A model generated the notes under the pieces. It was not told the origin of the DNA and did not search any database. It saw only the letters and a program-made list of their open reading frames with translations. 45,841 bases of DNA from Desulfobacterales bacterium (GTDB taxonomy: Bacteria > Desulfobacterota > Desulfobacteria > Desulfobacterales > JAFDHS01): contig JAUUWG010000003.1 of the NCBI GenBank assembly GCA_030589165.1, positions 1 through 45,841 of the forward strand, written 5' to 3'. This document shows, one piece after another, positions 4,740 through 29,122 of the stretch. Every line of letters starts with the position of its first letter. Positions within the stretch are counted from its first letter, which is position 1. The translations under genes and the position numbers were made by a program.

Positions 4740-4782
4740 CATTAAATAACGATGTTCTTAATTTTTTAAAGGAGTTTTCTTT

Positions 4783-5514
4783 ATGAAGTTTAAATTTTTT
4801 GTTGCTTTGTTTTTTGTATGCACTTTTTTTTACGCAACAGATTCCATAAGCGCAGAAAAAGAATCAATCAAATCACCTTCCACTTTTTTGTCCCGGGATA
4901 AATACGAATTTGCGCCGGTGCCGGAAGGTTTTGAGATAAAACATGATTTTATCATACAAAACAAAGGGGACGCCGTACTGGATATTAAAAAAGTCAGGAC
5001 CGGCTGAGGGTGTACGGCGGTCTCATATACGAGACAAATCCCTCCCGGCGGTGAGGGAAAGATCACTCTTAAGCTCAATACAAAGTACTATGGTGGGAAA
5101 AGACTCAAGAAAAACATCAGAGTAGAAACAAATGATAAGAATCGCCCGATAATTCATTTGACGATTTCGGGCATGGTCGAAAAATTTGCCTCCATTACCC
5201 CGAACAGAATAAGACTTGCCGGTTGTGTCGGCAAGGAGTTGAAAACTTCGGTAAGCATTATCCCTGAAAAAAAGTATCCGTTCAAAATTGTTAACGTCAC
5301 TGCAAAACAAGGGAAAAATATCCGTTACAAGATAGAGGAATTCAAAAAATCAAAAATATCGGAGTACGTATTGACCGTTGAAAACATAAAAAAAGAAATA
5401 GGCCGCTATTTCGATATTATTCATTTAAAAACAGACAGTAAAATCCAGCCGGAGATCAGCATCAGGGTAATGGGGAATATTTATGGCAGGCCCATCAATA
5501 AGACGGATAAATAG
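4783..5514 (+). CDS. Secreted DUF1573-type protein with in-frame TGA (5005-5007) at the first Cys of the CxC motif; candidate selenoprotein (alternatively a nonsense-mutated gene)
   Basis: ORFs 4783-5007 and 5158-5514 are in the same frame and the intervening codons are open: ...VLDIKKVRTG(U)GCTAVSYTRQIPPGGEGKITLKLNTKYYGGKRLKKNIRVETNDKNRPIIHLTISG...; N-terminal signal peptide MKFKFFVALFFVCTFFYATDSISA. Confidence 0.75.
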
Positions 5515-5520
5515 GCTTTT

Positions 5521-6135
5521 ATGATGGATATTAAAGTGGTTGCTTTCGACTGCGACGGCGTCCTTTTTGATACGACACAGGCGAACACGATTTACTACAA
5601 CAGGCTCCTGGAACATTTCGGCAAACCGGAGATGACTCCTGAACAGTTCAAGTATGTCCACATGCACACCGTTGATAATGCCATTGCCCACCTCTTTGAT
5701 GATGAGAAGACACGCAAGGCGGCTAATGAATACCTTCGTAAAAATGTAAGTTATCTGCCGTTTATCAAATATATGAAGATAGAGCCGTATTTAAAGCCCT
5801 TGCTAAAAAAGCTCAAGCCCTCTTACCATACGGCCATTGCTACAAATCGCAAGGGCACGATGAACCGGATTCTTTCAGAACACGGCATTGAAAAATATTT
5901 TGACCTGGTTGTAACGGCCTTTGATGTGAAACGACCTAAACCCTGCCCGGATTCACTTGTCAATATATTGAAGCATTTTAAAGTAGAACCCCGGCAGGTA
6001 ATTTATATAGGAGATTCGGAGCTGGATGAAAAAGCGGCAAAAGCTGCCGGAATACCATTTGTAGCATACGGCGACCCCTCCCTTTCAGCGGATTTTCATA
6101 TAAAAAACCTCAAGGAGGTTGAAGAGATTCTTTAG
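5521..6135 (+). CDS. HAD-family hydrolase (phosphoglycolate phosphatase-like)
   Basis: AFDCDGVLFDT, AIATNRKGT, KRPKPCPD, YIGDSELDEKAAKAAGI motifs. Confidence 0.92.
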   Translation: MMDIKVVAFDCDGVLFDTTQANTIYYNRLLEHFGKPEMTPEQFKYVHMHTVDNAIAHLFDDEKTRKAANEYLRKNVSYLPFIKYMKIEPYLKPLLKKLKPSYHTAIATNRKGTMNRILSEHGIEKYFDLVVTAFDVKRPKPCPDSLVNILKHFKVEPRQVIYIGDSELDEKAAKAAGIPFVAYGDPSLSADFHIKNLKEVEEIL

Positions 6136-17447: not shown

Positions 17448-18005
17448 ATGCCGAAAAAAGTTGTTTTCCTGGACAGAGATGGCGTTATAAACAAAGATTC
17501 TCCAAATTATATTAAGACTTGGGCCGAATTTGAGTTTATTTCCGGAAGTATCGATGCGATTCAAAATCTTACGTCAAACGGATTTGACACCATCGTAATT
17601 ACCAATCAATCGGTTATCAACCGAAAAATGACAGCTTTGTTCGAGCTTGAATATATTTTTTCCATGTTGAAAAAATCAATCCAATCCAAAGGAGGGCGGA
17701 TAAAGGATATTTTTTACTGCCCCCATACCCCTGAAGATAATTGCGACTGCCGTAAACCAAAACCAGGACTGATTTATCAGGCGCAAAAAAGATATAATAT
17801 TGACCTTTCAGCCTCTTGCATGGTAGGCGACAGTGCAAAAGACATTGAATGCGCCCAAAATGCCGGATGCGGATATGCCGTACTGGTCAAAACCGGAAAC
17901 AGAATAGAGGCCGAAAAAATACTGGCTGCAAAAAACCTCTTTCCCGACCATGTGGCTGAAAATCTTTATGAAGCAGTCAACTGGATTATTAAACAGAAAA
18001 AGTGA
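17448..18005 (+). CDS. gmhB: D-glycero-beta-D-manno-heptose-1,7-bisphosphate 7-phosphatase
   Basis: VVFLDRDGVINKDS, VITNQSVINR, YCPHTPEDNCDCRKPKPGLI, MVGDSAKDIECA. Confidence 0.92.
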   Translation: MPKKVVFLDRDGVINKDSPNYIKTWAEFEFISGSIDAIQNLTSNGFDTIVITNQSVINRKMTALFELEYIFSMLKKSIQSKGGRIKDIFYCPHTPEDNCDCRKPKPGLIYQAQKRYNIDLSASCMVGDSAKDIECAQNAGCGYAVLVKTGNRIEAEKILAAKNLFPDHVAENLYEAVNWIIKQKK

Positions 18006-27178: not shown

Positions 27179-29122
27179 CTAAGACTCACACTCAGCCGAA
27201 TTATTTATTTTTTTAAGATACCTTGTTCTGTATTTTTCCAATTCATCAGCCACCTGCGGCAAGTCATATTCCTTTAATATTTCAGCCTTGGGAAACCCTG
27301 TTTCATTATCCCATCCACGTACCTGGTAATAGAGCGGAATAAGCTCATCTTCAGGGAAGAGGACACCTTTGTTGGGTCCATCGGGCATCGGTTCTTCTGT
27401 AAAACGACGGGGACTTTTGTCCTCTAATCGCCCCACCAATAAACGGTTCCAGTAAGCTCTTTCCAGATGAACGATGCGTCCACCTATTTTCAACAATTCA
27501 TCTGCCGAAAAGTCTATTCCGGTAGCCGATGAAACCATCTTAGCCATATCCTCGGGAAGGACGGCAAAGGACCATGAATGGGTAAATGAACACTGAGTAA
27601 GGCAATCGCCCACTGCTTTAACGTCCTCTGAGTACTTTTCCATTTCCGGTTTCTTTACTTTTGAGAGACGATCTTCAGCCTCACTGGTTCCTAAAATCTT
27701 TTTCACCAGACCGGGGTAAAAGCCACCGGTCAACTCCAGACAGGGCAACCCCTGGAGGTGATCACCGCCGCGCCTCCCCGTAGCAAAGCCTATACCAAAG
27801 GCAAATCCCAGCCCCCGGGGATCGTCCTGGGACATATCATGCCCCTTGATTGTCATTGTATAATACTGCCCACGATTAAAATGCTTTGCTGCATAATGAG
27901 CCCCTTCAGCCAAAACATCTCCAAAACCCCGGCGTGAAGCAATCATTTTTATTAATTTATCAATCAACTCCTGATCACCCCATTTCAGAACCAGGCCGTC
28001 TGTATCTTCTTGGGTCAACAGACCCTTTTCGTAACACTCCATGGCCCAGGCAATGGCGGCACCGCAGGAACATGAATCCATCCCCAATTCATTTACCAGT
28101 TTATTGTTGTGAATAATCGATGCCGGATCCAACAGACCGATCCGGGGACCGATACCGGCCAGAGTTTCGTATTCCGGTCCTCCTGTAATTTCTCCGGCAT
28201 ATTTCCCCTTGGAAATTTTGCTGAACCTTCCGCAGGATATCGAACAAGCAAAACACCCCTCCCGGTGTGCCAAAAAATTATCCCGGTGGTTCTCACCGCT
28301 AAGCAATCTTCCATCCGGGTGATGTCCCTTTTGAAAATTTCTCCAGCACAACCATCCCTGCTCATAGTTTGCCGGCATGGTCAGAAGCAAGGTACCTTGG
28401 TCATACAACATCTGAGCCATCAGGTCCTGCTTGAGTTTTTCCCTTGCCTGAGCACAGATTTTAAAAAATTCCTTCGGTCGTGCTATTTCTACGGGAGTTG
28501 TACCCCGAAGTGCTACCGCTTTAAGATTTTTGGAGCCCATAACAGCCCCCATGCCGCACCGGCCTGCAGCGCGGTAAACATCGCTCATCATACAGGCATA
28601 GCGAACCCTGTTTTCACCAGCAGGACCGATAATGGCTATATGTATGTCATAATTATTCAATTCTTCTTTAATCATGGCATCAGTCTGAGGTATATTTTTA
28701 CCCCAGAGATGCTCGGCATCCCGGATCTCTACCTGATCATTATGAATGTAAAGATATACCGGGCTTTCAGCTTTACCTTGTATAATTAGTTGGTCATGTC
28801 CTGTATATTTCAGTTCCGCACCCCAGTGGCCACCCATATTTGAATCCCCAAAACCCGGAGGATCCTGAATAGGAGATTTTGTCGTAACCGTACACCTCCC
28901 ACTGGAAGGAGCAAAAGTTCCCGTGAGTGGACCGACACCGAAAACAAGGCGATTTTCAGGTGAAAATGGTTCTACCTCCGGTCCCACTTCCCGATATAAA
29001 AGCTCCGAGTTCAGTCCCCGTCCGCCTAACCATTTTTTTAAATGCCCGACGGGAATTTCTTCAACTGTTACCTTTTTGCTGCTTAAATCTACACGCAGCC
29101 TTTTTCCTCTATAACCGTACAT
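27179..29122 (-). CDS. Tungsten-dependent aldehyde:ferredoxin oxidoreductase family protein
   Basis: 647 aa; GGRGLNSELLYREV, GRCGMGAVMGSKNLKAVALRG, CFACSISCGRF...DSCSCG Fe-S ligands. Confidence 0.95.
   Translation of the reverse strand: MYGYRGKRLRVDLSSKKVTVEEIPVGHLKKWLGGRGLNSELLYREVGPEVEPFSPENRLVFGVGPLTGTFAPSSGRCTVTTKSPIQDPPGFGDSNMGGHWGAELKYTGHDQLIIQGKAESPVYLYIHNDQVEIRDAEHLWGKNIPQTDAMIKEELNNYDIHIAIIGPAGENRVRYACMMSDVYRAAGRCGMGAVMGSKNLKAVALRGTTPVEIARPKEFFKICAQAREKLKQDLMAQMLYDQGTLLLTMPANYEQGWLCWRNFQKGHHPDGRLLSGENHRDNFLAHREGCFACSISCGRFSKISKGKYAGEITGGPEYETLAGIGPRIGLLDPASIIHNNKLVNELGMDSCSCGAAIAWAMECYEKGLLTQEDTDGLVLKWGDQELIDKLIKMIASRRGFGDVLAEGAHYAAKHFNRGQYYTMTIKGHDMSQDDPRGLGFAFGIGFATGRRGGDHLQGLPCLELTGGFYPGLVKKILGTSEAEDRLSKVKKPEMEKYSEDVKAVGDCLTQCSFTHSWSFAVLPEDMAKMVSSATGIDFSADELLKIGGRIVHLERAYWNRLLVGRLEDKSPRRFTEEPMPDGPNKGVLFPEDELIPLYYQVRGWDNETGFPKAEILKEYDLPQVADELEKYRTRYLKKINNSAECES

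Follow-up and report, generated by a model that had tools for sequence, protein, structure and literature searches.

What does it mean when a gene runs into a stop codon and then simply carries on? In the window, by which we mean the whole stretch of 45,841 nucleotides of Desulfobacterales DNA analyzed here, a forward-strand frame opens with an ATG at 4783 and closes with a TAG at 5512–5514, and the only in-frame stop before that TAG is a TGA at 5005–5007, codon 75 of 243. An earlier note, made from the letters alone, had proposed that this is a candidate selenoprotein gene, a DUF1573-like protein with TGA at the first Cys of its CxC motif, and that a hairpin follows the TGA; the coordinates it gave for frame, TGA, motif, and hairpin are all correct. 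Its main claim is right, but the family has already been described, as OS_HP2. Here we ask how securely the UGA can be called selenocysteine (Sec), what in the message might direct that decoding, and what such a protein could be doing outside the cytoplasm.

The gene, its family, and its neighbors

The gene is preceded by a Shine-Dalgarno-like AAGGAG (4769–4774), 8 nt 5' of the ATG, and its read-through product of 243 residues has two domains, the second all-beta. A putative export signal, read from the hydrophobic N-terminus, takes up approximately residues 1–24 (MKFKFFVALFFVCTFFYATDSISA, 4783–4854), where the AlphaFold model has a helix (residues 4–18) of low confidence. That model, built from four sequences with a mean pLDDT of 80.6, consists of two Ig-like domains. 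The first is the DUF1573 domain (residues 37–132, 4891–5178), recognized by PF07610 at an E-value of 5.3e-18 as well as by its model strands; the second (residues ~134–234, 5182–5484) is defined by model strands at 136–234 and by fold matches in the PDB. Those matches are generic Ig-like or central-pair (HYDIN-type) folds with low TM-scores, and a PDB sequence search with the protein found no relative.

Alignment places the TGA where the CGC motif of the DUF1573 domain begins, within the residues KKVRTG-U-GCTAVSYTRQIPPGGEGKI, and it begins a U-G-C motif (Sec75-Gly76-Cys77, 5005–5013) whose columns are conserved in our first set of homologs and form the sole conserved Sec/Cys pair of the mature protein there. 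The product scores 148.5 bits against the NCBIfam model NF041425, “OS_HP2 family (seleno)protein,” for which the curated cut-off is 100, and it has Sec where that family has it, opening the UGC/CGC motif of the DUF1573 domain. The gene is, in other words, a member of a known selenoprotein family, and the protein family is not new. NF041425 is credited to Zhang and Gladyshev, 2007. Two reviews list a “DUF1573 domain-containing protein, UGC,” trace it to the same 2007 paper, and place its first appearance in the delta symbiont of Olavius algarvensis (PMC9312934, PMC13188914), and a 2008 GOS paper names OS_HP2 with pfam07610 and a UxC motif (PMC2398784). With the family in these sources our protein shares the domain, the Sec position, the UGC motif, and a deltaproteobacterial host, and we see no essential difference at the protein level. 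The Cys-type DUF1573 and HYDIN-like Ig proteins (PF07610, PF22544) share the fold and the position of the CGC motif but, unlike the window gene, have a Cys codon there and lack the Sec-type hairpins described below. HesB-type selenoprotein identity was also considered and dropped, there being no profile match above cut-off.

Upstream lies a gene for a calcineurin-like phosphoesterase (PF12850, 4236–4739, forward strand), which adjoins the OS_HP2 gene in 7 loci, and only 6 nt downstream on the same strand lies a HAD hydrolase gene (5521–6135), a conserved neighbor in 26 of the compared loci; priA or polA, both named by eye, is often close to the HAD-flanked copies. The HAD-flanked setting, which is that of most copies, says little about function. 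Because the phosphoesterase gene ends in an ordinary TGA, the codon is not recoded across the genome, and genome-wide reassignment is ruled out. A second flagged in-frame TGA (18003–18005) proved to be an ordinary stop separating two genes in the same frame.

Elsewhere in the window, an IscB-type gene (1–993; RRXRR domain PF14239, HNH PF01844) is cut by the window edge and has an in-frame TAA (349–351) within its HNH region; since TAA can be neither Sec nor pyrrolysine, this gene looks decayed or mis-sequenced. On the reverse strand, the start of an open reading frame at 27182–29122 resembles, by eye, tungsten aldehyde ferredoxin oxidoreductase.

Reading of the UGA codon

Is the TGA a codon or an accident? 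Comparison with homologs, which the earlier note had proposed, finds either Cys or Sec at the TGA column. We searched 40 genomes, made up of the one that contains the window, a congener, and 38 more from the same order, and a read-through homolog turned up in 38 of them, nearly always with exactly one in-frame TGA. A first set of copies comprised 41 Sec copies (TGA at the column) and 7 Cys copies (TGC or TGT); a second set, drawn later from a census of the phylum, added 20 Sec copies, or 19 after one duplicate was dropped, and 20 Cys copies, for a total of 60 distinct Sec and 27 Cys copies, numbers that are not frequencies, since the sets were picked by the presence of TGA in a census row, and in which the test is the position of the TGA. 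In every aligned Sec copy that position is identical, the first C of CGC, and the column is the same in the second set, where some Cys copies have CAC or CSC in place of CGC. Two remote matches with Cys at the column fall outside the family and were not counted. On a domain tree of 87 rows, many of whose forks are weak, the Sec/Cys label changes at least eight times (7–8 in the bootstrap). Two genomes each contain three paralogs, Sec and Cys mixed, and would suit a study of Sec/Cys exchange.

The congener keeps the TGA, where the earlier note had asked whether a close relative might have an intact TGC or TGT. Between the window and the congener, dN is 0.035 and dS 0.143 before the TGA, and 0.022 and 0.128 after it, so substitution is purifying on both sides; both marks of a bacterial selenoprotein gene, a TGA over a conserved Cys and coding conservation on either side of it, are present. 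The host also has the needed machinery: tRNA-Sec (76.5 bits, UCA anticodon), SelA (612 bits), SelB (378 bits), and SelD (376 bits), the last with an in-frame TGA of its own. Five FlpD/MvhD-type genes with in-frame TGA in the same genome are further selenoprotein candidates.

A nonsense mutation, a pseudogene, or a sequencing error might have been suspected, because a single substitution separates the Cys codons from TGA. The data already refute and exclude such an accident: the TGA stands at this column in independent genomes across dozens of families, purifying selection continues 3' of it, and RNA structure (below) follows it in the Sec copies only. What began as a candidate is now supported by a column-exact TGA, by the sel genes, and by Sec-only hairpins, and on these computational grounds we regard it as almost certain that this is a functional OS_HP2/DUF1573 selenoprotein gene, its UGA decoded as Sec by the genome's own SelA, SelB, SelD, and tRNA-Sec.

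Two hairpins downstream of the UGA

What, then, would tell the ribosome to insert Sec? In the accepted model of the bacterial SECIS element (bSECIS), a hairpin with a loop of 3–9 nt and a stem of 4–16 bp carries a G as one of its first two loop nucleotides, and its loop lies 16–37 nt after the UGA (PMC13188914). We find not one hairpin but two. Hairpin 1 (GTCTC-ATATAC-GAGAC, 5020–5035) pairs GTCTC (5020–5024) with GAGAC (5031–5035), and its loop, which has no early G, begins 17 nt after the UGA. Hairpin 2 (UCCCUCCC-GGC-GG(U)GAGGGA, 5039–5058) has one bulged U (5052) and a GGC loop (5047–5049) that begins 39 nt after the UGA. As in the consensus (PMC13188914), a small-loop hairpin stands soon after the UGA, inside the coding region, and both hairpins have loops and stems of the sizes given above. 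The difference is that neither hairpin of the window combines the early G with a loop at 16–37 nt: the one in range is without the G, and the one with the G lies at or just past the far limit, its loop starting at 37–39 nt in this and most other Sec copies.

On a 48-column alignment RNAalifold recovered just three pairs, with no net energy, so we relied instead on counts for named structures and on a null in which the protein is kept and synonymous codons are redrawn. Against this null the mean z of the 41 Sec copies of the first set is -2.70 for hairpin 1 and -1.96 for hairpin 2, and that of the 7 Cys copies is -0.89 and 0.00. In the held-out second set the values are -2.63 and -1.90 (19 Sec copies) and -0.30 and -0.13 (20 Cys copies). 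Both hairpins therefore exceed the synonymous-codon null in Sec but not in Cys copies, and they do so again in held-out sequences, with the proviso that the sequences are related, so that z-scores and counts do not represent independent events. Control windows further 3' gave no significant signal, the largest being -0.58 (p 0.28), in one window of the second-set Sec copies. A sliding profile has two peaks in OS_HP2 Sec copies, none in OS_HP2 Cys copies, and one in SelD Sec genes (30 loci of the same order); the SelD profile is diluted, because a short motif served to select these loci and some few of them are apparently in the wrong frame.

Covariation in hairpin 1 is also plain: for each of the seven pairs counted, both arms of the stem vary; at the column pair 17/30, for example, there are 17 CG, 17 UA, 5 UG, and no unpaired combinations. 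The earlier note's hairpin is thus well borne out, as is its observation that the loop lacks an early G, which is found in the first two loop positions of hairpin 1 in only 4 of 60 Sec copies and of hairpin 2 in 56 of 60. Across these 60 copies the loop of hairpin 1 starts 14–20 nt after the UGA; that of hairpin 2 is mostly GGC or GGU, with its start at 37 nt for 8 copies and 38–39 (or 42) nt for the others. Taken jointly, a functional selenoprotein gene with UGA as Sec and the existence of both hairpins seem to us very probable.

Could there instead be one long hairpin? The earlier note had GAGGG (5006–5010), overlapping the UGA, pair with CCCTC (5040–5044) in an outer helix enclosing hairpin 1, and these pairs do exceed the synonymous null in the first set. 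This is probably not the folded form. The CCCTC is shared with hairpin 2, so that the two compete, and in computed ensembles the outer helix is hardly populated (~0.3 expected pairs, against 6.5 for hairpin 2); its 5' arm, moreover, contains the UGA and would be inside the ribosome during decoding. Since CCCTC probably pairs with GAGGG at 5053–5057, we set the outer helix aside and think a single long hairpin improbable. That competing pairing had been noticed before and counted against the selenoprotein case; it is the pairing of hairpin 2, whose loop has the G that hairpin 1 lacks.

Which hairpin would SelB bind?

We propose a SECIS of two hairpins. The SelB site would be the GG(C/U) loop of the second, and the first would fold out a spacer of ~20 nt, thereby bringing the loop of hairpin 2 near the decoding site despite its distance of 37–39 nt in the sequence. 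This assignment of roles strikes us as somewhat better than an even bet. The serious rival, unlikely in our judgment but by no means negligible, is that hairpin 1 alone is the SECIS, that SelB tolerates a loop without an early G, and that hairpin 2 adds only stability or pausing. Hairpin 1 does stand as far from the UGA as a SECIS normally does, in a place that overlaps the one peak of the SelD profile, and it has the strongest selection signal (z -2.7) in addition to covariation. Against this, SelD and each FlpD candidate of the genome in which a hairpin could be identified carry an early loop G, at 19–27 nt, and Sec-specific selection acts on hairpin 2 too. We prefer hairpin 2 as the SelB site for three further reasons: the loop letters of hairpin 1 are much alike in Sec and Cys copies, with no sign of Sec-specific selection on the loop; hairpin 1 is sometimes weak (weaker than -6 kcal/mol in 5 Sec copies), whereas hairpin 2 never is, reaching -5.8 kcal/mol or lower in all; and the one-codon insertion of two copies is absorbed within hairpin 1.

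The GG of the hairpin 2 loop proves nothing by its presence, because a nearly invariant Gly imposes it. Selection must for that reason be argued from the stem and the third base, which alone are Sec-specific; the loop Gly codon is GGY in 50 of 58 copies, compared with 53% gene-wide. In the window ensemble hairpin 2 has 7.7 expected pairs, and hairpin 1, with 2.2 in the unconstrained fold, is disfavored there unless one takes the first bases to be held in the ribosome.

If hairpin 2 is the SelB site, we might be looking at a bacterial SECIS class in which two hairpins stand in tandem, the first a structural spacer in the normal SECIS position and the second, with the GG loop that SelB binds, slightly beyond the distance usually allowed. 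Such a SECIS would have been retained throughout a phylum in a single selenoprotein family whose Cys copies lack it. We put the chances of this reading as evenly balanced. As far as could be checked, it is possibly a new SECIS variant; searching full texts for a bacterial SECIS with two hairpins, with incomplete coverage of the pertinent papers, returned nothing relevant.

What might the protein do?

We know of no experiments on the OS_HP2/DUF1573 selenoprotein family. Our best guess, held a little short of even confidence, is that the exported protein, two Ig-like domains bearing a Sec-Gly-Cys pair, acts as an extracytoplasmic thiol-disulfide oxidoreductase, its pair cycling between the selenol/thiol and the selenenylsulfide. 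We lean this way because the mature part conserves no Sec/Cys pair other than U75-G-C77 and because, in some relatives, a MauE gene is upstream or fused, in one of them within a cluster that includes redox genes. The gene for MauE, a family of membrane proteins, lies directly upstream of OS_HP2 in four genomes (G022, G024, G220, and G243), and in another (G031) the two form one open frame. The cluster in G024 also includes a rhodanese, a DsbD-like membrane protein, two thioredoxin-like proteins, an ArsP-type permease, an SBF/ACR3-like transporter, and a methyltransferase. Such redox genes are not among the neighbors of the OS_HP2 gene in the window, and MauE had no match in the window's own genome, an assembly that is ~65% complete. 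In one other genome, Cys-type OS_HP2 copies flank FlpD- and HdrA-like genes (by eye).

The main alternative to a redox couple is that the UGC pair serves to bind a metal(loid), namely copper, mercury, or arsenic. Sec is a good ligand for soft metals, and in some relatives the gene is clustered with transporters of arsenic type and a methyltransferase; such clusters account for a minority of the copies, most of which adjoin HAD/priA genes, and we consider metal(loid) binding rather unlikely.

Implications

What is gained, then, from one more TGA read through? The family acquires a further well-supported member, and the genes found around some of its relatives (MauE, rhodanese, DsbD-like, arsenic genes) provide a setting that makes its function open to testing. 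If the two-hairpin signal is true, it would help explain SECIS elements that do not fit the single-hairpin model, and it would give selenoprotein finders a new rule. The comparison of 60 Sec with 27 Cys copies turns the matter into one that reporters can test directly.
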